Source of the DNA: a virus
Virus record (IMG/VR): IMGVR_UViG_3300044539_000047
Span: 1 to 29,623 of that record
Strand: one strand, 5' to 3'
DNA: 29,623 nt
The notes under the pieces were generated by a model, which worked only from the letters and a program-made list of their open reading frames with translations, was not told the DNA's origin and did not search any database. Shown one piece after another: positions 7,598 through 22,507 of this stretch (the first letter of the stretch is position 1; every line of letters starts with the position of its first letter). The translations under genes and the position numbers were made by a program.

Positions 7598-9265
7598 ATG
7601 GCAAAGAAAAAAATAAGCGGACTGCCTGCTGGCAGCGCTCTAAATGGAACTGAGTTAGTGCCTATCGTTCAGACTGGCACAACTAAAAGAATCACAACGC
7701 AGGACATTGCAAATTTAGGCAATGCAAGTGGCGTTGAGGGAACTGGCACAATCAATCGAGTTGCTAAGTTTACCGCAGCTTCAACGATTGGAAACTCTTT
7801 AATCAATGACAATGGGACAAGTGTTTGGACAAATGGCGGGGGCGCAATTGCAAGCAATACTGCTTATGGTCAAAGTGCTTTAACAAGCAATACCACTGGC
7901 ACAGACAACGTAGCTTTTGGACTTTCAGCATTAAACGCTAATTTAATAGGAGCAAGCAACTCTGCTTTTGGACATGAGGCTTTAAAATTATCGACTGGAA
8001 GTTTTAATACTGGAATTGGTAGGCACGCATTGACATCGAACACAACTGGTGCGTCTAATACTGCAATTGGAGTTGGTTCTATGTTTGGCAATGTTGCGGG
8101 TGGAAACAATACGGCAATTGGTCAAAGTGCTTTGCGTTCAAATAATGCAAGCAATAATGTTGCCGTTGGTTTTGAGGCTGCTTTTACAAATGCAAGTGGA
8201 ACTGGACTAACTGCTATTGGATACCAAGCGTTAAGAGTATCAACTGGCAATAACAATACTGCGGTTGGTAATCAATCTTTGTTTGCAAACACAACTGGAG
8301 CGTCAGTAACTGCAATAGGTTATCAATCGTTGCGTCAAAATACAACTGGCTCAAATAATATCGGTTTGGGGGATTCATCTTTGTTTAACAATACAACTGG
8401 TTCGAATAATACTGCATTAGGAACTGGCGCTTTAGCCACATCAACTACGGCTTCAAACAATACCGCAGTTGGTCGCACCGCATTATTATTTAACACCGCA
8501 TCTAACAACACTGCGGTTGGCTTTGAGGCTGCATATACTAACACAAGTGGAACTTTAACCGCAATTGGTTATCAAACATTAAAAGCAAACACCACTGGAA
8601 CAAATAATACCGCAATAGGAGATAGAGCATTAACTGCAAATACAACTGGTATAACAAATACCGCTATTGGTCAAGCTGCATTATTTACAAATATTGTAGG
8701 TAATAACAATACTGCTATTGGAACAAGTGCTTTGTTTGCAAATACAGGGTCTGCAAATACTGCTATTGGTTCAAGTGCTTTGCTAAACAACACCGCAAGT
8801 AATAACACTGCGGTTGGTTTTGAGGCAGCAAGTGGAAATACAAGTGGTAGTTCAATAACTGCAATAGGATATAGAGCGTTAAAAGCAAATACAACTGGCG
8901 GCAGCAATACTGCAATAGGGGATGTTGCATTAACTGCAAATACAACTGGGGCAAACAACACCGCAGTTGGATATTTTTCATTGGCAGGCAGTACAAATGC
9001 AGGTCAAAATACTGCAATTGGATATGGTTCATTTAGTTCAAATACAACTGGTCAAAATAATACTGGAATTGGATATAATGTGCAAACTGGAAACTTTAAT
9101 GGTAGTGTTGTTATTGGTAGAGATGCAGTTGCAACAAATAATAATCAATTTGTTGTTGGAACGGCTGCAATAAATGCAGGTGCGGTAGCAGTAGAAGTAA
9201 ATGCATCTTCAAAGGTTTGGAATGTAATAATTAACGGAGTAGCACAGAAAATATTATTAGCATAA
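7598..9265 (+). CDS. Tail fibre with YadA-like head repeats
   Basis: A 555-residue fibre. The N-terminus ISGLPAGSALNGTELVPIVQ (6-25) is a common attachment segment of Bacteroidota phage fibres. From about residue 85 to 500 the protein is built from degenerate 12-16 residue repeats of the NTAIG/NTAVG type, with NNTAIG, ALxxNTTG and TAIGYQAL recurring. These match the left-handed beta-roll head of trimeric autotransporter adhesins such as YadA. A short C-terminal domain (NQFVVGTAAI...WNVIINGVAQ) may cap or trimerise the fibre. It should bind the host surface. Start at 7598 follows an A-rich leader; the stop overlaps the next ATG (TAATG). Confidence 0.85.
   Translation: MAKKKISGLPAGSALNGTELVPIVQTGTTKRITTQDIANLGNASGVEGTGTINRVAKFTAASTIGNSLINDNGTSVWTNGGGAIASNTAYGQSALTSNTTGTDNVAFGLSALNANLIGASNSAFGHEALKLSTGSFNTGIGRHALTSNTTGASNTAIGVGSMFGNVAGGNNTAIGQSALRSNNASNNVAVGFEAAFTNASGTGLTAIGYQALRVSTGNNNTAVGNQSLFANTTGASVTAIGYQSLRQNTTGSNNIGLGDSSLFNNTTGSNNTALGTGALATSTTASNNTAVGRTALLFNTASNNTAVGFEAAYTNTSGTLTAIGYQTLKANTTGTNNTAIGDRALTANTTGITNTAIGQAALFTNIVGNNNTAIGTSALFANTGSANTAIGSSALLNNTASNNTAVGFEAASGNTSGSSITAIGYRALKANTTGGSNTAIGDVALTANTTGANNTAVGYFSLAGSTNAGQNTAIGYGSFSSNTTGQNNTGIGYNVQTGNFNGSVVIGRDAVATNNNQFVVGTAAINAGAVAVEVNASSKVWNVIINGVAQKILLA
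7850..9120 (+). repeat. Degenerate tandem repeats inside the fibre gene
   Basis: The DNA shows many imperfect short repeats such as AATACTGCAATTGG, CAAATACAACTGG and AATAACACTGCGGTTGG at multiples of three bases. They encode the YadA-like head repeats. The copies diverge at third codon positions, so selection acts on the protein, but recombination between copies could change the repeat number. Confidence 0.8.
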
Positions 9266-12438: not shown

Positions 12439-12446
12439 TAACTTTG
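12439..12446 (+). promoter_or_regulatory. Promoter -7 element (TAACTTTG) before the protease gene
   Basis: TAACTTTG fits the Bacteroidota TAnnTTTG -7 consensus exactly. Only five bases separate it from the ATG at 12452, so the transcript would start at or within a few bases of the start codon. No TTTG -33 box is found at the usual distance; the palindrome at 12401 may replace it. Confidence 0.6.
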
Positions 12447-14566: not shown

Positions 14567-15133
14567 ATGCCATGTGGAATAGTTAGTGGATTAGCTTGTG
14601 CGACTTGCGAAGATTTGCAGTCGGTAGGCGGAATAAAAGCCAAAAACATTTACGTGGGTTCACTATCGGATTTGACCGATAGTGGATTCACGACAGATAG
14701 CGAGAACGTTGTTACTGCAATCGGTTTACAACCATACAACTATCTTTACAAGTTCTGCGCAAAAACAAAAAGCGCAGGTGCAAGTCAAGAATTAGTTACT
14801 GGCGAAAACAATATCAAATCGTTTACACAAACGATTACTGGTAAATTTCAGCAACAAACACAAGACGCTAAAAATGTTTGGGATAATTTAAAATTGATTG
14901 ACGATTTATTCGTTGTAGTTGAAAAGACAAATGGTACATTTGAATTGTATGGAATGTCAGCAGGATTAGAAATCACTGCGCTTACAAAAGCGACTGGAGT
15001 TTTAATTGGCGATGACAATGCGTTCAATATTACTTTGTCTCAACCAATGGGCGGAGAGTCAGAATTAGCACCAGATTTCTTTGTAACAAGCTACCAAGCT
15101 ACAAAGGCTTACTTAGAAAGCAGAATTGCTTAA
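14567..15133 (+). CDS. Probable major tail (tube) protein
   Basis: A 188-residue protein. It starts MPCGIVSGLACATCEDLQSV followed by GGIKAKNIYVGSL, a Cys-containing opening I associate with tail or structural proteins of Bacteroidota phages. The rest is beta-rich, with DLFVVVEKTNGTFELYGMSAG and a later GVLIGDDNAFNITLSQPMGGE, the strand-turn-strand style of tail-tube subunits. The strong Shine-Dalgarno sequence, its place after the capsid gene and the terminator after it fit an abundant virion protein. A capsid decoration protein is the alternative. Confidence 0.6.
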   Translation: MPCGIVSGLACATCEDLQSVGGIKAKNIYVGSLSDLTDSGFTTDSENVVTAIGLQPYNYLYKFCAKTKSAGASQELVTGENNIKSFTQTITGKFQQQTQDAKNVWDNLKLIDDLFVVVEKTNGTFELYGMSAGLEITALTKATGVLIGDDNAFNITLSQPMGGESELAPDFFVTSYQATKAYLESRIA

Positions 15134-15154: not shown

Positions 15155-15195
15155 AGAGGGGCGATGTGGTTAACCATGTCGCCCCTCTTTTTTTT
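15155..15195 (+). terminator. Strong rho-independent terminator
   Basis: AGAGGGGCGATGTGG (15155-15169) pairs with 15174-15188 across a TTAA loop: 15 pairs in RNA, including two adjacent G-U pairs. Eight T follow (15188-15195). It closes the protease-capsid-tail tube unit. Because the stem ends only a few bases before the TATATTTG element, terminator and next promoter are back to back. Confidence 0.92.
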
Positions 15196-15207
15196 GTGAA
15201 ATATTAC

Positions 15208-15215
15208 TATATTTG
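15208..15215 (+). promoter_or_regulatory. Promoter -7 element (TATATTTG) of the glycan cassette
   Basis: TATATTTG matches TAnnTTTG exactly and lies four bases before ATG 15220, so the mRNA should be leaderless. The -33 region overlaps the terminator's T-run and right arm, and no clean TTTG is present at 19 bases. This gives the glycosyltransferase cassette its own transcription start. Confidence 0.6.
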
Positions 15216-15219
15216 CCTT

Positions 15220-15396
15220 ATGACAATACCAGAAATCAAAATTTATGTGAGTGCGCAAGGCGGACAAGCAATGAACAGAAAGGACATCGTCTGGAATTTA
15301 ATATTTGACATGTACAAAAGGTCAACTGGGAATAGATTATCGACTGGATGTGGGTCGTGTTACAAAAGAGCATACAGATGGCTTCAAAATCAGTAA
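15220..15396 (+). CDS. Small Cys-motif protein, first gene of the glycan cassette
   Basis: A 58-residue protein. I chose ATG 15220 because the in-frame ATG at 15166 lies in the terminator hairpin and upstream of the promoter element. The C-terminal segment STGCGSCYKRAYRWLQNQ has a CxxC pair and resembles small proteins common in Bacteroidota phages, of unknown role. It overlaps the next gene by 19 bases. Confidence 0.6.
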   Translation: MTIPEIKIYVSAQGGQAMNRKDIVWNLIFDMYKRSTGNRLSTGCGSCYKRAYRWLQNQ

Positions 15397-16055
15397 TTTA
15401 TCAAATATACTTTGATGACAAAACAAAGAAATATGTCAGTCCAAACGCAATTGGATATGACAATTCTATTTATGAGGGCAAACCATTTCAGCCTGCGTTT
15501 GAAAACCACGTCATCCGAGAATTAATCGAGCAAGGCAAGCATAAAGAGGCCGAATACTTTGGCGTTTTTTCGTGGCAGTTTGAATCAAAGAACTCATATT
15601 GGCTTAAAAACTTAGAGGCAGACGTCAAAGATGCTGACATTTATACGTTTTATCGCTTGCACACCCAACCAAATGTCTGGCGAGTTGCTGAGAATTGGCA
15701 TTCTGGTATTATTGAAACGGCTCAATATATCTTTAATCAATTTAATGGCTTAAAAATAGACCGATTGCAGACTCCGACCATTTATCAAAATGCCCACGTT
15801 ACACGCTCTGAGATTTACGAAGAGTTTGTTTGCACATGGTTAATCCCTTTAATGGATATAATGTCTCAGAGCGAAGATAAATGGCTACAAAATAGATTAT
15901 ATACAGACACTAAATATAAGTGGGGGCGATTTTCAGCCGAAAAAATAAAGGCAATCACTGGCGTTGAATATTATCCGATGCACACGTTTATTTGTGAGCG
16001 TTTTTTCTCGACATTTTGTGCAACTAAAAACTTTAAAATCAAACATTTATGCTAA
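15378..16055 (+). CDS. Glycosyltransferase-cluster protein of unknown family
   Basis: A 225-residue protein starting at ATG 15378 (MASKSVIYQIYFDD); an upstream in-frame ATG lies deeper in the previous gene. The phrases VIYQIYFDDKTKKYV, YFGVFSWQFESK and, near the end, MHTFICERFFSTF resemble poorly characterised proteins found in polysaccharide biosynthesis clusters. No DxD or Rossmann motif is clear. It is followed by four further GT-like genes, so a role in glycan transfer or recognition is likely but unproven. Confidence 0.5.
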   Translation: MASKSVIYQIYFDDKTKKYVSPNAIGYDNSIYEGKPFQPAFENHVIRELIEQGKHKEAEYFGVFSWQFESKNSYWLKNLEADVKDADIYTFYRLHTQPNVWRVAENWHSGIIETAQYIFNQFNGLKIDRLQTPTIYQNAHVTRSEIYEEFVCTWLIPLMDIMSQSEDKWLQNRLYTDTKYKWGRFSAEKIKAITGVEYYPMHTFICERFFSTFCATKNFKIKHLC

Positions 16056-16828
16056 AAGTAAAATTGACGAGCAATTATGCTACGTCTGAAGTATTGGCAA
16101 GCGAGGTCATGCGACAATTTGCACCAAAAAAAGAGGTCAAACCATTTAAGTTTACCAATTCAAATGACTATGATTTGCTATTTATATTCAATGACACAAT
16201 TGAAAAGATAAAAGACCCTGCAAAAACCTTTGCGTTTGCACAAGAACCGAGTTGGTCGGCAAATTATAAGGATTGGACTGGGCAAGTGGCTGAGTTTATT
16301 GCGCCAGTGAATAACCAATTGCCATTGATGTTTAATTGGAGTGGCTTAGACTATGAAGATGCAATAAATTTGAAGTCTGAAAAGACTAAAAAATGTAGTT
16401 TTATAGTGGCCAAACAAGAACCGAGAGAGGGAACGTTGTATGGATTTAGAAACGAATTGGTTGAAAAGATATTAGCATCGGATTTGGACATTGATATTTA
16501 CGGCAAAGGTTGGGACATTAAGGATGCCAGATATAAAGGCGAATTAAAAGAAAAAAAAGATGGTTTAATTGATTACCACACGTCTATTTGCATTGAAAAT
16601 TCAATTGAAGATTATTATGTAACTGAGAAATTTTGGGATATTGTCATTTGCAATGCGTTTCCGATACCTTATTCGGCCATTGCTGAGAATACAATGCAAC
16701 GTTTAGAGGCTATTATTTCGCTTGCAAGCATGGGCGATTCAGAAAAACTTGTTGAAGAGCAAAAAGAATACTATTTTAGCGACTTAAATATATATAATTA
16801 TATAAAAACCAAATGCCAATCTGCATAA
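16049..16828 (+). CDS. GT10-like (fucosyltransferase family) glycosyltransferase
   Basis: A 259-residue protein. The C-terminal half carries the conserved alpha-1,3-fucosyltransferase signature: IDIYGKGW (148-155), then YHTSICIENSIEDYYVTEKF (176-195) and NAFPIPYS (202-209). In GT10 enzymes this region binds GDP-fucose. The N-terminal half (FAFAQEPSWS...FNWSGLDYED) would be the acceptor domain. There is no signal peptide, so it acts in the cytoplasm. It overlaps neighbours by 7 and 16 bases. Substrate cannot be read from sequence; fucose is the family default. Confidence 0.8.
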   Translation: MLKVKLTSNYATSEVLASEVMRQFAPKKEVKPFKFTNSNDYDLLFIFNDTIEKIKDPAKTFAFAQEPSWSANYKDWTGQVAEFIAPVNNQLPLMFNWSGLDYEDAINLKSEKTKKCSFIVAKQEPREGTLYGFRNELVEKILASDLDIDIYGKGWDIKDARYKGELKEKKDGLIDYHTSICIENSIEDYYVTEKFWDIVICNAFPIPYSAIAENTMQRLEAIISLASMGDSEKLVEEQKEYYFSDLNIYNYIKTKCQSA

Positions 16829-17466
16829 CTTTCGGGACAAAGGATTACCAACAAGCAATCGATAAATTGCATAAATCCATGAGCAGATTTATGTACACTA
16901 AAACATTTAACGAGAAGAGTGTTGAAATGCTTTTTGATGCTTACCCAGAGCATCTATATTCGTCTCGGGGTTATGGTTGGTGGCTTTGGAAACCTTATTT
17001 AATAGATTACATTTTGAGCATCATTGACGAGGGCGAATATGTCATGTATCTGGACTCAACAATTGAATGCCTAAAAAATCCAAATGACTTAATCAAAGAG
17101 GGCGAAAATATAAAGCTATTTCATAACGGCCAAAGACACATTGATTGGTGCAAGTCTGAGACATATTACGACATGGGCGTTGTTTGCATGCCAGACCAAA
17201 TGCAAGCGAATGCAGCAATCCAAATTTATAGAAACACACCAGAGACCAGAGCGTTTGTGCAGGAATATTTTAACCTTTGCTCAAATCTTATGCTTGTCAA
17301 TGATGAGTGCAATCCAGATTATCAATTGAGCGGATTTAAGGCTCATAGACACGACCAAAGTATTTTAACAAACTTAGCGGTCAAATACAATATTAAATTG
17401 AATACATCGCCATGCCAATGGGGTATGGGGGCAAATGCTTACTTTAACCATCATAGAATAATATGA
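16813..17466 (+). CDS. GT-A-like glycosyltransferase
   Basis: A 217-residue protein. RGYGWWLWKPYLIDYIL (52-68) followed by GEYVMYLDST (74-83) matches a group of bacterial nucleotide-sugar transferases in which the aspartate-containing strand binds metal and sugar nucleotide. A later HDQSILTNLAVKYNI segment is also typical of that group. The cytoplasmic protein overlaps the GT10 gene by 16 bases and the next gene by 4. Donor and acceptor are unknown. Confidence 0.7.
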   Translation: MPICITFGTKDYQQAIDKLHKSMSRFMYTKTFNEKSVEMLFDAYPEHLYSSRGYGWWLWKPYLIDYILSIIDEGEYVMYLDSTIECLKNPNDLIKEGENIKLFHNGQRHIDWCKSETYYDMGVVCMPDQMQANAAIQIYRNTPETRAFVQEYFNLCSNLMLVNDECNPDYQLSGFKAHRHDQSILTNLAVKYNIKLNTSPCQWGMGANAYFNHHRII

Positions 17467-17636
17467 ACATTTATAAAATCATTCTGGCATTAATCGTTTT
17501 AATGTCATATAACAAAATTTACAAAAAAGACTGGAGTTTCTTTAAAGAATACGGCGGCTCTCGAATTTATTACACAAAAACGATTATAACAATTCTAATT
17601 GAGTTGGGTATTTTCTTAATTATTTATATGGCATGA
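17463..17636 (+). CDS. Small membrane protein
   Basis: A 57-residue protein with two hydrophobic segments (YKIILALIVLM at 4-14 and TIITILIELGIFLIIYM at 40-56) separated by a basic, aromatic linker KIYKKDWSFFKEYGGSRIYY. Starts and stops overlap neighbours by 4 bases on both sides (ATGA), which supports translation. It may tether cassette enzymes to the membrane or modify host envelope; this is conjecture. Confidence 0.6.
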   Translation: MNIYKIILALIVLMSYNKIYKKDWSFFKEYGGSRIYYTKTIITILIELGIFLIIYMA

Positions 17637-17812
17637 AAATTAAAGGCGTATTAAAAAAAGACGATGACGGCCTATACATGGAGGTTGTCAAAAAAATGTA
17701 TCTAAATGATTACATTATGAATGTCGAGCAGGCAAATAAATTAAATAAAATAATCGGTAAAAAAATTACAATAGAATATGAAAACATTAGTCCAGTTGGC
17801 GATAAACAATAA
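17633..17812 (+). CDS. Small hypothetical protein
   Basis: A 59-residue, charged, soluble protein beginning MKIKGVLKKDDDGLYMEVV. It overlaps the preceding gene by 4 bases and the methyltransferase gene by 35. It has no motif that I recognise. Clean coupling to the upstream gene and the lack of any other reading frame covering this stretch support it as real. Confidence 0.55.
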   Translation: MKIKGVLKKDDDGLYMEVVKKMYLNDYIMNVEQANKLNKIIGKKITIEYENISPVGDKQ

Positions 17813-18305
17813 GGCTCAACAAAAACCATTAGAATTTGAAGAGTTATTGCATGCGCTAAACTCAATGAAAAGCAAAAAGATTGCAGTCGAAATTGGCAGC
17901 TATGACGGCGGATGCTTACATGCTTACAAAGGATTGTTTGACAAAGTCATTTCGATTGATATTGCTCAACGTTCAAACATTGATGGCGTGGATTATTTAA
18001 TTGGCGACTCTAAAGAATTAAAAGCTGAGTTAATCAAAGCACTGGGCAATAGCAATGCAAAGATTGATTTCCTTATGATTGATGGCGACCATACTTATGA
18101 GGGAGTCAAAGCAGATTTCGAATTGTATTCTAAGTTTGTGCGTAAAGGCGGAGTGATTGCATTCCATGACATCATTGACACGCCATTGCATAGGGAATTG
18201 TTTTGTCGAGTGGATAAGTTCTGGAATGAAATTAAAGACGGCAAAGAGCATGACGAATTTATTGAGGGTTCTGACTGGGGCGGAATTGGAATTTTATGGA
18301 TATAA
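17778..18305 (+). CDS. Class I SAM-dependent methyltransferase
   Basis: A 175-residue protein. VEIGSYDGG (37-45) is the SAM-binding motif I, SIDIAQ (59-64) supplies the acidic residue for the ribose, IDGDHTYEGV (101-110) is the metal/substrate motif and FHDI (129-132) follows. This order fits the Methyltransf_24/CmcI-type group, often found in glycan clusters where it methylates sugars or small molecules. A DNA methyltransferase motif (DPPY/NPPF) is absent. The context between glycosyltransferases points to sugar O-methylation, an inference. Confidence 0.85.
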   Translation: MKTLVQLAINNKAQQKPLEFEELLHALNSMKSKKIAVEIGSYDGGCLHAYKGLFDKVISIDIAQRSNIDGVDYLIGDSKELKAELIKALGNSNAKIDFLMIDGDHTYEGVKADFELYSKFVRKGGVIAFHDIIDTPLHRELFCRVDKFWNEIKDGKEHDEFIEGSDWGGIGILWI

Positions 18306-18907
18306 TTATAACTTGTAAAGATAGATTGCTGCATTTAAAAAAGTGCATTGCAACTATTAAAGATAAATCAAAGATATTCGTTGTATGTTACGGCGATGAA
18401 ATGGCATATAGATATTGCCAACAGAATGAAATCCGCTCATGCTTGACGGCCGCAAAAGACTTTCATTTATCAAAGGCCAGAAACTTGGGGGTTGCTGAAA
18501 CTAACGAGGAATGGATTTTCTTTTGCGATGCGGACACCTTATTAGACCCGACATTTTTTGATAATTTAGATTTAAAAGACGGCAATTATTACACTGGCGA
18601 ACCAGATTGCTCTGGGAATTGTATCGTTAAACGCTCAGATTTTATGGGTTATGACGAAAATATTAAAGGCTATGGCGGAGAGGATTCCGATTTATATATT
18701 TCTTTGAGCAGAATCGGCATTCAAAAAAACTATATTGGACGAATGAAATACATCCCACATTCGGATTTTGATAGGACAAAGAATTATGGCAACAATAAGA
18801 AGTGGGAGCAACAAAAGAAAAACATTATCTATTTAATGTCAAAGCATCCTCATGAATTTATATTTCCACAATACGTTCCAAATGAAATGAAAACACTTTT
18901 TGTATGA
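18296..18907 (+). CDS. GT-A glycosyltransferase (GT2/GT7-like)
   Basis: A 203-residue enzyme. It opens MDIIITCKDRLLHL, the usual nucleotide-binding start of GT2-like folds, and carries LSKARNLGV (58-66) and the metal-binding DAD in IFFCDADTLLDP (75-85). GYGGEDSDL (125-133) is the acceptor/catalytic motif of galactosyltransferase-type C-terminal domains. The protein is soluble. It overlaps the methyltransferase by 10 bases and the next gene by 4. Sugar specificity is unknown. Confidence 0.85.
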   Translation: MDIIITCKDRLLHLKKCIATIKDKSKIFVVCYGDEMAYRYCQQNEIRSCLTAAKDFHLSKARNLGVAETNEEWIFFCDADTLLDPTFFDNLDLKDGNYYTGEPDCSGNCIVKRSDFMGYDENIKGYGGEDSDLYISLSRIGIQKNYIGRMKYIPHSDFDRTKNYGNNKKWEQQKKNIIYLMSKHPHEFIFPQYVPNEMKTLFV

Positions 18908-19179
18908 TATACAACTCAATTGTAATTGCTTTGCTATGCTTTGGCTTTTATCGGTCAACAAGGCATGGAAATATTTTATATTTTATCCAAAGATTTGCGG
19001 ATAAATTACCAAAGATATTTGGAAAGCCGATTTGCTTGTGTTTGACTTGCATGGCCTCACTGCATACATTGGTTTGGCATCCGCTTTTGTTCGGGATGAG
19101 CGTTGACATTATTCCAACAATATTAATTGTGGCCTCATTCAATTACTTTATTGATTTAATAGTTTCGAATTATGAATAA
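18904..19179 (+). CDS. Small membrane protein with a Cys motif
   Basis: A 91-residue protein with hydrophobic segments near residues 4-15 and 60-85 and a central FGKPICLCLTCMASLHTLVW. The CxCxxC-M-A-S pattern resembles DUF1360-like membrane proteins (C-x2-C then small residues and an aromatic) seen in phages and bacteria. The function is unknown. It is coupled to both flanking glycosyltransferase genes (overlaps of 4 and 8 bases), so it probably belongs to the same pathway. Confidence 0.65.
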   Translation: MIYNSIVIALLCFGFYRSTRHGNILYFIQRFADKLPKIFGKPICLCLTCMASLHTLVWHPLLFGMSVDIIPTILIVASFNYFIDLIVSNYE

Positions 19180-19897
19180 ACTGGCAGGCATTTGGAATGT
19201 TTGGGATGGCGATGAGCATTTAAAACGTTCGATTGAGTTAATCAAACCACATTTGGACGTTGTTATTGTTGTTTACCAGAATGTAAGCAACTCTGGCGAA
19301 TTATATGAGCCAACTTTGCCACATGAATTGATTGATTTAACAAATTTTTATATTCCTGCGCTTACGCAAACTGCTCAATGGAATGAAACTATCAAACGAA
19401 ATATAGGTTTGCAAACTGCAAAGAGCGTTGGTTGCACACATTTTATTCAAATGGATTGCGATGAGATGTATTTTAGTGAGGATTTTGAGCGAGCAAAGGA
19501 GCAAGTTTACGTTGAGCAACTGGATGCAAGCTATTGCAGACTAAAAACATACTATAAATATCCGACTAAACAACTATCGCCAGACGAAGACTATTTCGTT
19601 CCTTTTATTCATAAAATTCACAAAGAAACAATCATGTGTTTCGATAAAAAATATCCTGCGTTTGCAGACCCAACAAGACGCACCAATACTTACGCCAAAC
19701 ATAAGCAAATTGAGTGGCTTAGAATGCACCACTATTCGTTTGTGCGCAACAATATAGAGCGCAAGTTGAGAAATTCGTCATCGTCAAGCGCATTTGATGG
19801 GCAATATGACATTTGGAAACGATTTGATGACACTGGCGAAATGATACATTTCAAAGATTATAAGACAATTGACGTAGCAAACTACTTTGATTTGTAA
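19172..19897 (+). CDS. Glycosyltransferase-like protein
   Basis: A 241-residue protein that starts MNKLAGIWNVWDGDEHLKRS, typical of GT2/GT92-like enzymes. It has QWNETIKRNIGLQTA (69-83) and the metal-binding strand HFIQMDCDEMY (90-100, D95/D97). A later WLRMHHYSFVR segment may bind acceptor. It is the last gene of the cassette; a palindrome overlaps its stop codon and the portal promoter follows. Substrate is unknown. Confidence 0.75.
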   Translation: MNKLAGIWNVWDGDEHLKRSIELIKPHLDVVIVVYQNVSNSGELYEPTLPHELIDLTNFYIPALTQTAQWNETIKRNIGLQTAKSVGCTHFIQMDCDEMYFSEDFERAKEQVYVEQLDASYCRLKTYYKYPTKQLSPDEDYFVPFIHKIHKETIMCFDKKYPAFADPTRRTNTYAKHKQIEWLRMHHYSFVRNNIERKLRNSSSSSAFDGQYDIWKRFDDTGEMIHFKDYKTIDVANYFDL

Positions 19898-19908
19898 ATA
19901 TATTGCAA
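19892..19908 (+). promoter_or_regulatory. Palindromic operator upstream of the portal promoter
   Basis: TTGTAAATATATTGCAA is an imperfect inverted repeat of the same TTGTAA-N5-TTrCAA form as at 12401. Its first base again lies exactly 38 bases before the TAnnTTTG element. It overlaps the last codons of the preceding gene. Confidence 0.5.
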
Positions 19909-19929
19909 ATATTAATTTAAAATAAAAAG

Positions 19930-19937
19930 TAAATTTG
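19930..19937 (+). promoter_or_regulatory. Promoter -7 element (TAAATTTG) before the portal gene
   Basis: TAAATTTG fits TAnnTTTG exactly and lies five bases before ATG 19943, so the mRNA would have almost no leader. The surrounding 45-base gap is AT-rich and lacks a TTTG at the usual -33 distance; a TTG at 19903-19905 is 24 bases away. Confidence 0.6.
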
Positions 19938-19942
19938 TAAAA

Positions 19943-21376
19943 ATGGAACTAACTCAAATTTCGGACAATTATTTCATGTTTTCGGCCAAAGCGCCTGCGG
20001 ATTTATCTGTTTTTAATCAAACAGATGACACTGCAAACAAAATTGTGCGCTATGGTAAAGACAATAACTTTCCGCAGGAACTAATCAAAGCAGTCCAATC
20101 GTCTCCAATCGCAAATGCTTGTGTTGAAACACACGCAAAATTTTTGTATGGGGATGGATTATATTTTGAAACTCCGACTGGAGAGGAAACAGATTTCTCA
20201 AAAAGATTAAAAGAAATTTTCAACGAGTCAGTTTACCAGAGAATCTGTTATGACATGGCTTATTTTGAATCTTTAGGTCTTATCATGAAATGGGATTTGA
20301 ATGGTTATTTAAAAAGTGTTAAGTCGCAGGATTTTTCGACCATTCGTTTAGGTATTCCAAACAAAGATTTTGAAATAACATTCGCAAAGTTGTCAAGTAA
20401 CTGGCAACAAGAAACAAAAGACAGAAGATACAAAGCCGTTCCGATTGACTTATATAATGACATCGAAACAAAGGCTAAAATTTCAAATTTCAGTGAGAAT
20501 TCTTTATATGAAGATTTCAGCAAATGGAATGGAACGTTGAAGTATATTCGCAGATATAAGCCTGGCCAAGTGTATTATTCGCAGCCAAAATATGCGTCTG
20601 CTTTGAAATGGATTTATGCCGATGGCCAGATTCAAAATTTCCATGCAAACAACGTTGACAATTCGTTTGCGCCTGCATTCATAGTTTATGTGCCATACAA
20701 ATTGACTGGCGAGGACGAGAATGGTAAGGACATGAAAGAATCGTTGAGAGAATACATTGCAGACAGATTAACTGGCGCAGACAATGGCGGTAAATTTGCG
20801 ATTTTAGATGGCTCATCAAAAGAGGGGTCAATCCAAATCATTCCATTTAGTCAGAGTACGTCTCACGAAATGTACATCACACTTTCTAATTTAATTAGAG
20901 ACCACATTGCAACTGCATTTCAAGTTCCATCTATATTGGCAGGCATTCAAGTTTCTGGCAAATTAGGAACTGCAAAAGAAATAGCAGATTCGTCAATATA
21001 TTACCAGAATGCAGTCATAAAACATGACCAAAATTTGTTAATGTACGAAATGAATGCACTGGCTAAATTAATGGATGGCTATGATGGCACAACTATTAGT
21101 GTGAGCAACTCAATTCCATTGGCATTTGTTGCGGAATCATTTGCAAGCGCATTCACAGAAGAGGAAATTAGAGAGGCATTTGGTTACGGCGCTAAAGAAG
21201 TCAAATTGAATACTGCGGCAAACAATATCATTGATAATATTAACGCATTATCGCCATTGGTTGCAAATAAAGTATTGGAGTCAATGTCTGAGGCAGAGAT
21301 AAGAAGTTTAGCGGGATTGATTGGTGCGAAACCAACGTCTACGCCAGTTGTTACACCTATTAATCCAGTAAAATAA
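19943..21376 (+). CDS. Portal protein
   Basis: A 477-residue protein with portal traits. These are an N-terminal stretch VRYGKDNNFPQELIKAVQSS, a clip/stem-like region SPIANACVETHAKFLYGDGL (35-54), the NLIRDHIATAFQVPSILAGI segment (316-335) typical of phage portals, and a Gln/Asn-rich helical C-terminus followed by a Pro/Thr tail (TSTPVVTPINPVK). Portals form the dodecameric ring for DNA entry. The gene is far from the terminase, after the glycan cassette, with its own promoter. Its stop overlaps the next ATG (TAATG). Confidence 0.85.
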   Translation: MELTQISDNYFMFSAKAPADLSVFNQTDDTANKIVRYGKDNNFPQELIKAVQSSPIANACVETHAKFLYGDGLYFETPTGEETDFSKRLKEIFNESVYQRICYDMAYFESLGLIMKWDLNGYLKSVKSQDFSTIRLGIPNKDFEITFAKLSSNWQQETKDRRYKAVPIDLYNDIETKAKISNFSENSLYEDFSKWNGTLKYIRRYKPGQVYYSQPKYASALKWIYADGQIQNFHANNVDNSFAPAFIVYVPYKLTGEDENGKDMKESLREYIADRLTGADNGGKFAILDGSSKEGSIQIIPFSQSTSHEMYITLSNLIRDHIATAFQVPSILAGIQVSGKLGTAKEIADSSIYYQNAVIKHDQNLLMYEMNALAKLMDGYDGTTISVSNSIPLAFVAESFASAFTEEEIREAFGYGAKEVKLNTAANNIIDNINALSPLVANKVLESMSEAEIRSLAGLIGAKPTSTPVVTPINPVK

Positions 21377-21876
21377 TGGCTTGTTGCGGTTGTCAATTCA
21401 TAACACAAACAGATTTTTATGGCATTGTGCCGCTTTCAAGAAACGTTGAGAGCGAAGACATTGAAATTGCCATTAAGAACGCACAAATAACATATATTAA
21501 TCAATTGCTTTGTCAAGATTTATTTGACGAGTTATGTCAACAAATAACAGACGAAGACATTAGCGTTGCAAATGAGGAATTATTGTGCTATTTAAAAAAG
21601 GTGCATGTTTGCTATGCGTTTGGAGACTTTTTGTTTTTCCATCCAGTGCAAGTTACAAAGGAAAGCGTTGTCAGAAAAGTAACAGACGAATCTGAGTTTG
21701 TTGACTTTGACACCAACGAAAAGCAAGCAAATTATTGGAGACAGATTGGCAAAAACTATGCGAGAGAAATGTTTGAATGGCTAAAGCTAAACGAAAATTT
21801 GAATCCATTATACGACCAAACATCGTGCAATAACTGCGATGAGACTAAAAATTTAGAAAACTGGGGAATATGCTAA
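21376..21876 (+). CDS. Head-tail connector/adaptor-like protein
   Basis: A 166-residue protein that starts MACCGCQFITQTDFYGIVPL and ends in CNNCDETKNLENWGIC. The helical middle, SEDIEIAIKNAQITYINQLL and KKVHVCYAFGDFLFFH, is of the kind seen in head-completion adaptors, and it follows the portal directly. Cysteine pairs at both ends could bind metal or form a disulfide. No definite family motif is recognised. Confidence 0.6.
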   Translation: MACCGCQFITQTDFYGIVPLSRNVESEDIEIAIKNAQITYINQLLCQDLFDELCQQITDEDISVANEELLCYLKKVHVCYAFGDFLFFHPVQVTKESVVRKVTDESEFVDFDTNEKQANYWRQIGKNYAREMFEWLKLNENLNPLYDQTSCNNCDETKNLENWGIC

Positions 21877-22217
21877 CAATATATCAAAATACAACGAGCG
21901 AAATAAGTATTTCATTGCCGAGCGTGCATGATTACTATTTATTTGTGTTTATTAAAGATGGTATTATTGAAAAAAGCATATACGAAACAATCCCATGCGA
22001 TGACTTTTGTTTTGTTTTAATTGAAGACATTGAGTTGGGTATTTGGGATATTAATATTTTTGGACAAGCGAGTCCAACAAATTTAGACCCTGCATTGGCA
22101 ACGTTCCTTTATGACAATGACGTTGAAGTTAAGGTCAATTATAGTGATTATATAGTTACTCAGAAATGCGATTTTATTGTAACTGAGGACAATGATTTTT
22201 TAATGACAGAGTGGTAG
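21870..22217 (+). CDS. Structural protein, paralogue A of a tandem pair
   Basis: A 115-residue beta-rich protein. The core DYYLFVFIKDG...LGIWDINIFGQASPTNLDPALAT aligns by eye with the following protein's FYLFQFTRNNG...TGFWSLKVYGQSDYSNLNPANAT. The pair is therefore a recent or ancient tandem duplication. Such GxW...YGQ...NLxP proteins recur in Bacteroidota phages near head-tail genes; the function is unknown. Its C-terminus has an extra repeat, TQKCDFIVTEDNDFLMTEW, absent from the partner. Confidence 0.65.
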   Translation: MLTIYQNTTSEISISLPSVHDYYLFVFIKDGIIEKSIYETIPCDDFCFVLIEDIELGIWDINIFGQASPTNLDPALATFLYDNDVEVKVNYSDYIVTQKCDFIVTEDNDFLMTEW

Positions 22218-22507
22218 TCATTGACGCAAATATCGACACTAAAGTAACTCTATTTTTAGAGGAATCATTTAGCTTTTATTTATTCCAATTTACAAGGAAT
22301 AATGGATGCGATGAATTTATTGACGTATTCACTGCGGTCGAATGCGATTTTTATTCATTCATTGTGAATGTGGATTTGCCAACTGGGTTTTGGAGTTTGA
22401 AAGTTTATGGACAAAGCGATTATTCGAACTTAAATCCCGCAAATGCAACTTTAGTATTTGAGGACATGGCCAGAATAATCAATGCAGCAGATGAGTGTTT
22501 ATTATGA
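22211..22507 (+). CDS. Structural protein, paralogue B of a tandem pair
   Basis: A 98-residue protein starting at GTG 22211, which overlaps the previous stop. Aligning its start with the first paralogue supports this codon, since no ATG is available nearby. It shares the YLFxF, G-x-W, YGQ and NLxPAxAT positions with its neighbour but lacks the C-terminal extension. Two diverged copies may form a heteromeric ring or adopt different sites in the virion. Confidence 0.6.
   Translation: MVVIDANIDTKVTLFLEESFSFYLFQFTRNNGCDEFIDVFTAVECDFYSFIVNVDLPTGFWSLKVYGQSDYSNLNPANATLVFEDMARIINAADECLL

Follow-up and report, generated by a model that had tools for sequence, protein, structure and literature searches.

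Glycosylation of the capsid and tail tube has been described in mycobacteriophages Che8, Corndog and Myrna (Freeman et al., 2023, as described in PMC12363180 and PMC12619734). That system and the cassette reported here are alike in that the glycosyltransferases (GTs) are phage-coded and occur in unrelated phage lineages. The cassette differs in comprising several genes, in having conserved edges and a swapped middle, in its occurrence in Bacteroidota phages and in being known from genes alone. The capsid N-glycans of chlorovirus PBCV-1 are made in the cytoplasm and involve a virus-coded fucosyltransferase and a rhamnose O-methyltransferase (PMC7826918). Points of likeness are virus-coded GTs including a fucosyltransferase, O-methylation, a cytoplasmic location (probable in our case) and a core shared by relatives whose outer sugars vary, but PBCV-1 is a giant algal virus with a proven N-glycan, and weak similarity of folds is the only sign of homology to the cassette. 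The loci for O-antigen and capsule in bacteria (for example, that of Klebsiella WbbM, GT111) also combine conserved flanks with an exchangeable GT interior, and the predicted fold of the cassette enzyme c1 is WbbM-like; unlike these loci, the cassette is small and phage-borne. The Gtr seroconversion modules of temperate phages (gtrA-gtrB-gtrC) are, like it, phage GT operons carried as optional cargo, but the cassette is found in a virion gene block and not beside an integrase. Assignment as a Gtr-type module was rejected: there was no Pfam match for GtrA/Gtr, and only two small proteins (c4 and c8) have hydrophobic segments. In the open-access literature we found no description of such a cassette in Bacteroidota phages. 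Phage glycosylation is thus already known; as far as we found, the cassette with conserved edges and a swapped middle, common to two virion types, is new.

The window (the whole stretch of DNA analysed, 29.6 kb) is a virus record classed as unfinished, with siphophage-type virion genes. The gene order is terminase, tail genes, tape measure, protease, capsid-type gene, 188-aa gene, cassette, portal, holin and endolysin (Table 1). The cassette consists of ten ORFs between positions 15220 and 19897, all on the + strand and each overlapping the next by 2 to 47 bases, in agreement with an earlier note on this DNA that had read them as ten coupled genes. That note had also placed the cassette between capsid and portal genes. 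It does lie before the portal gene, but its left neighbor is the 188-aa gene that follows the capsid gene. The product of this gene is 91 to 92% identical in a lineage with 78% portal identity, and our guess is that it forms the tail tube.

Table 1. Positions of the cassette genes, their flanks and the associated transcription signals in the window.
Feature	Position	Strand	Evidence or remark
Protease	start 12452		phrog_94, 9.8e-48
Capsid-type gene	13562		weak match
Left flank, 188-aa probable virion protein	14567..15133	+	phrog_19091, 4.9e-10 (PHROG of unknown function)
Intrinsic terminator ending the capsid-side transcript	15155..15188	+	15-bp stem, then T8
TATATTTG, Bacteroidota-type -7 motif (TAnnTTTG)	15208..15215	+	4 bases before first ATG; TAnnTTTG in 12/12 aligned sequences
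s58, 58-aa protein with CGSC motif, first cassette gene	15220..15396	+	conserved first gene in window clade and L117-L119
c1, left edge glycosyltransferase, WbbM N-domain (GT111)-like predicted fold	15348..16055	+	AF2 pLDDT 83.9
c2, GT10 (fucosyltransferase family)	16049..16828	+	PF00852, E 1e-8, 35.5 bits (cut-off 23.9)
c3, probable glycosyltransferase, unnamed family	16813..17466	+	D81 and HRHDQ conserved across 12 divergent members
c4, 57-aa membrane protein	17463..17636	+	KD19 maximum 2.05
c5, 59-aa protein	17633..17812	+	undetected in part of far lineage
c6, SAM methyltransferase (Methyltransf_24)	17778..18305	+	PF13578, 9e-13, 49.4 bits (cut-off 26.3)
c7, GT2 glycosyltransferase	18296..18907	+	PF00535, 1.9e-7, 31.6 bits (cut-off 23.3); PF10111, 1.3e-6, above cut-off
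c8, 91-aa membrane protein with invariant GKPICLCLTCM	18904..19179	+	KD19 maximum 2.07
c9, right edge GT-A glycosyltransferase (predicted fold) with DxDE, DPTR and MHH motifs	19172..19897	+	AF2 pLDDT 92.9
TAAATTTG, -7 motif before portal gene	19930..19937	+	invariant in 12/12 aligned sequences including L074
Portal protein, right flank	19943..21376	+	phrog_11226, 1.6e-32

The terminator hairpin has a folding energy of -28.1 kcal/mol (z = -8.2). All three relatives that were tested retain it, with compensating G-C to A-U substitutions in the stem. It confirms the strong terminator proposed at the left end, and the two -7 motifs support the promoters proposed there and at the portal gene. The motifs are put forward because they are conserved and not because of their number: the window holds 39 TAnnTTTG against 44 expected, which is not significant by count alone. 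A -33 TTTG at canonical spacing from these motifs was looked for and none was found, and a sigma-70 promoter scan gave no excess over shuffled sequences. A third TAnnTTTG is found at 12439-12446, 5 bases before the protease gene, the same distance as at the portal gene.

The earlier note counted about five glycosyltransferase-like proteins. Four are supported and c3 is a probable fifth, because it shows GT-like conserved residues only. c3 had no Pfam or PDB match; a GT8 assignment was considered and is not claimed (one match in 12 members, E 0.12). The single GT10-like protein, the methyltransferase and the two membrane proteins of that count correspond to c2 and c6 (both above the Pfam cut-offs) and to c4 and c8. 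c6 also gives a weak match to PF04989 (rhamnosyl O-methyltransferase/CmcI, 0.0012) and is probably a sugar O-methyltransferase. Hydrophobic segments were found in c4 and c8 and in none of the five GTs or the methyltransferase. Pfam and hydrophobicity analysis of the cassette found no multi-membrane flippase, Gtr-like transferase, Wzx/Wzy-like gene, polymerase or lipid-carrier transferase. These two results suggest that assembly is probably cytoplasmic and takes place directly on a protein.

c1 and c9, taken together with their relatives, were modelled with AF2, and the models support GT-A type folds for both. The predicted c1 fold aligns with WbbM (6u4b) at Z 14.4 over 192 residues (3.6 Å, 16% identity; VIA-align), and the next row has Z 9.1. 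Foldseek alone gave a best E of 0.055. WbbM is the founding GT111 enzyme (PMC12269835). The GT111/DUF4422 sequence model gave no match to any of the 12 c1 members, even with E values as high as 1 allowed, and c1 is therefore not assigned as a member of that family. For c9, the nearest folds are ThuS (Z 14.2) and SunS (Z 13.2), over 162 to 165 residues at 9 to 10% identity (Foldseek 7e-7). SunS and ThuS are peptide S-glycosyltransferases, which put a sugar on a peptide. Other GT2-type enzymes follow close behind (Z 11 to 13), and the fold neighbors also include the cell-envelope GTs WrtF, TarS and RmlT. No name for c1, c3 or c9 came out of PHROGs, NCBIfam or sequence searches of the PDB; the predicted models provide fold-level assignments for two phage protein families that are widespread yet unnamed in the family libraries.

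Close relatives were collected by IMG/VR portal and capsid searches, which are independent of the cassette (portals 75 to 100% identical). All 19 of the separate contigs that cover the slot (portal identity 75% or higher; several loci belong to one contig and were counted by contig) carry the cassette in the same order. Some members of the far lineage have lost c4 and c5 or carry versions too diverged to recognize. The dN/dS values of the cassette genes are mostly 0.04 to 0.15, like those of portal and capsid; two c5 comparisons are higher and rest on very few changes. Constant presence and purifying selection indicate that the cassette has long been established in this genus and is maintained by selection.

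In relatives with 42% portal and 50% capsid identity, a cassette occupies the same slot, with c1 (40%, as in L074) on the left, c9 (48%) on the right and different GTs between them. A third group (L117-L120) has the same edges, yet other middles; these loci were found through c9 and are therefore uninformative on frequency. The cassette of L118 includes, at L118:4388-5649, a GDP-mannose 4,6-dehydratase (PF16363, 7e-118) and a cupin-type protein, and with the dehydratase this phage can start making its own deoxy-sugar donor. Six deep outgroups found by capsid or portal searches (L122, L124, L126, L128, L132 and L037) carry no cassette from the left-flank gene to the portal gene, and five of them have a 129- to 131-aa gene in the slot.

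The search with c9 also drew in sheath-tailed phages (their tail sheath matches phrog_165 at 3e-77 or better, and their tube phrog_4699), which are distant kin of Flavobacterium columnare phages (sheath 48% identical). The bias of this search was avoided by searching with the sheath, independently of GTs, and taking the best 80 loci, among which 51 contigs carry both terminase and sheath. Among these best 80 loci, a GT cassette is found at the terminase-sheath junction in 25 of the 51 contigs (gap 2.8 to 9.2 kb, median 5.9), with c9 in 21 and c1 in 3 of the 25. The other 26 have no GT cassette at the junction, where the gap has a median of 93 bp and is below 430 bp in 23 of them. On the sheath tree, the occupied or empty state needs 7 changes, at least two to three of which are forced by strongly supported branches, indicating that kindred cassettes are gained and lost in sheath-tailed phages. 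Within the same best 80 loci, 19 of the 25 cassettes have the reverse orientation to the sheath gene, and these are thus not co-transcribed with it. At the junction of L212 (L212:2445-9536), the place of a GT cassette is taken by about 7.5 kb of other genes, none of which matches a GT; the spot may therefore take other cargo.

c9 is the most widespread cassette gene; beyond the window clade it occurs in 32 viral loci (L073-L078 and L095-L120). MAGs with Bacteroidota names contain prophage-like copies of the sheath-type cassette (L134 and L137), and the hosts are therefore probably Bacteroidota. In L133, L135 and L138, c9 lies among siphophage-type genes, again in Bacteroidota-named MAGs. The phage collection contained no isolate with the cassette and only remote c9 relatives, in Lak megaphages (28% identity). 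In one 194-kb viral contig (L114:9234-10759), c9 is present as two genes in tandem, along with a GT10 gene and several genes that resemble nucleotide-sugar dehydratases. Relatives of c9 at 28 to 40% identity also lie in bacterial genome contigs of several phyla (L140-L156), often near nucleotide-sugar genes; the c9 family thus exists outside phages too.

We put at about 50% the reading that the cassette is an exchangeable locus for glycan assembly, its edge enzymes conserved and its middle variable, and that its probable role is the cytoplasmic decoration of a virion protein. The soluble GTs (c1, c2, c3, c7 and c9) would act late in infection, draw on host nucleotide sugars, probably including GDP-fucose in the case of c2, and assemble a short oligosaccharide in the cytoplasm, which c6 may cap by O-methylation. 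The acceptor would most likely be one of the abundant proteins of the virion, such as tail tube, sheath or capsid. By its likeness to peptide-acceptor GTs, c9 is the candidate enzyme for the first sugar; c1 could act as a second core enzyme, and c2, c3 and c7, in the variable middle, could decide which type of glycan is made. This reading is supported by the conserved edges around a swapped middle in one slot, the predicted folds of c1 and c9, the Pfam matches of c2, c6 and c7, the dehydratase of L118, the junction cassettes of sheath-tailed phages, the enzymes' lack of hydrophobic segments, the lack of a tyrosine integrase match in 14 siphophage-type records (fragments) and purifying selection like that on virion genes; the mycobacteriophage and chlorovirus systems are precedents for it. 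The analysis shows the gene content, these folds, the conservation, the edge and middle pattern, the empty and occupied sites and the repeated lodging beside virion genes, whereas we infer the sugar identities, the order of action, the acceptor, the late expression and the presumed benefit (shielding or altered adsorption). Cassettes lie beside virion genes in two unrelated particle types; this is no more than suggestive of a virion acceptor, because virion genes fill much of these 30- to 45-kb genomes. Among the targets raised by the earlier note (virion, DNA or host surface), we favor the virion.

The main rival is that the enzymes modify a host envelope glycan (capsule or LPS-like) in the infected or lysogenic cell, causing superinfection exclusion or less sticking of virions to debris. 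The two membrane proteins and the cellular c9 relatives, with their frequent nucleotide-sugar genes, fit an envelope glycan and count against the virion-protein reading, as do the envelope GTs among the fold neighbors of c9, the 19 of 25 sheath-type cassettes that point away from co-transcription with the sheath gene and the finding that 23 of the 51 sheath-tailed phages (best 80 loci) live without a cassette. The WbbM-like, GT10 and GT2 enzymes resemble those of O-antigen and capsule synthesis, and the prophage-like copies in L134 and L137 are consistent with action in a lysogen. We nevertheless regard the envelope as the less likely target: the cassette lacks a Gtr-type flippase, multi-membrane transferase or Wzx/Wzy-like gene, it sits within the virion gene block from terminator to portal, c9 is nearest to peptide-acceptor GTs, and no tyrosine integrase was found in 14 siphophage-type records, which are fragments.

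It is improbable that the cassette is recently acquired selfish or neutral cargo with no settled role, inserted at a permissive spot between transcription units. The earlier note had called it a moron-style insertion and proposed a synteny comparison as the way to refute this. In the 19 close relatives the cassette is always present, in the same place and with the same promoter motifs, so the insertion idea fails at genus depth; a recent insertion near the window was rejected on this presence, the shared motifs and purifying selection equal to that on virion genes. The idea holds in kind at greater depth, where outgroup slots are empty and interiors are swapped. Like a moron, the cassette has its own terminator and promoter motif, identified by sequence signals only, but absence at the same site is confined to deep outgroups. 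The empty junctions in 23 of 51 sheath-tailed phages (best 80 loci) and the other cargo in L212 fit a permissive spot, whereas the same end genes recur in distant lineages. Glycosylation of a modified base in phage DNA as a defense against restriction, as in T4, is the least probable reading: phage GTs are known as DNA glycosyltransferases (PMC12619734), but no thymidylate synthase/hydroxymethylase match (PF00303) was found in the 14 siphophage-type records (fragments that may be incomplete), no base-making gene was found among the tested right-hand genes of the window, the cassette is not close to replication genes, and GT10 plus an O-methyltransferase fall outside the known pattern.

Extended beyond the window clade, virion decoration becomes a more tentative proposal. 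Bacteroidota phages of at least two virion types may share an exchangeable 'glycotype' locus, in which the edge GTs (c9, often c1) would lay a core on a virion protein while interior GTs, methyltransferases and sugar-nucleotide enzymes are swapped to give different particle sugar coats, as O-antigen loci do for cells. If so, virion sugar coats would be a modular, serotype-like trait of unrelated Bacteroidota phages, beyond a few mycobacteriophages and algal viruses, and there would be named genes to knock out, c9 first. Pairs of phages with an empty or occupied junction would offer a natural set for studying the roles of virion glycans in shielding, adsorption and protection from host enzymes.

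Some differences were seen outside the cassette. A 555-aa protein of NTAxGxxAL-type repeats (window 7598-9265) gave no match in a Pfam search and is probably a fibre; in L074 and L122, relatives of it are encoded directly behind the portal region. The portals of L016-L019 are about 45 residues shorter at the C-terminus than the window portal. L008, L009, L011 and L015 have about 1.15 kb of additional sequence between holin and endolysin compared with the window. Two neighboring window genes (21870-22217 and 22211-22507) correspond to a single ORF in several relatives, L002, L003 and L019 among them, and are probably a tandem pair that was lost or fused in other relatives.
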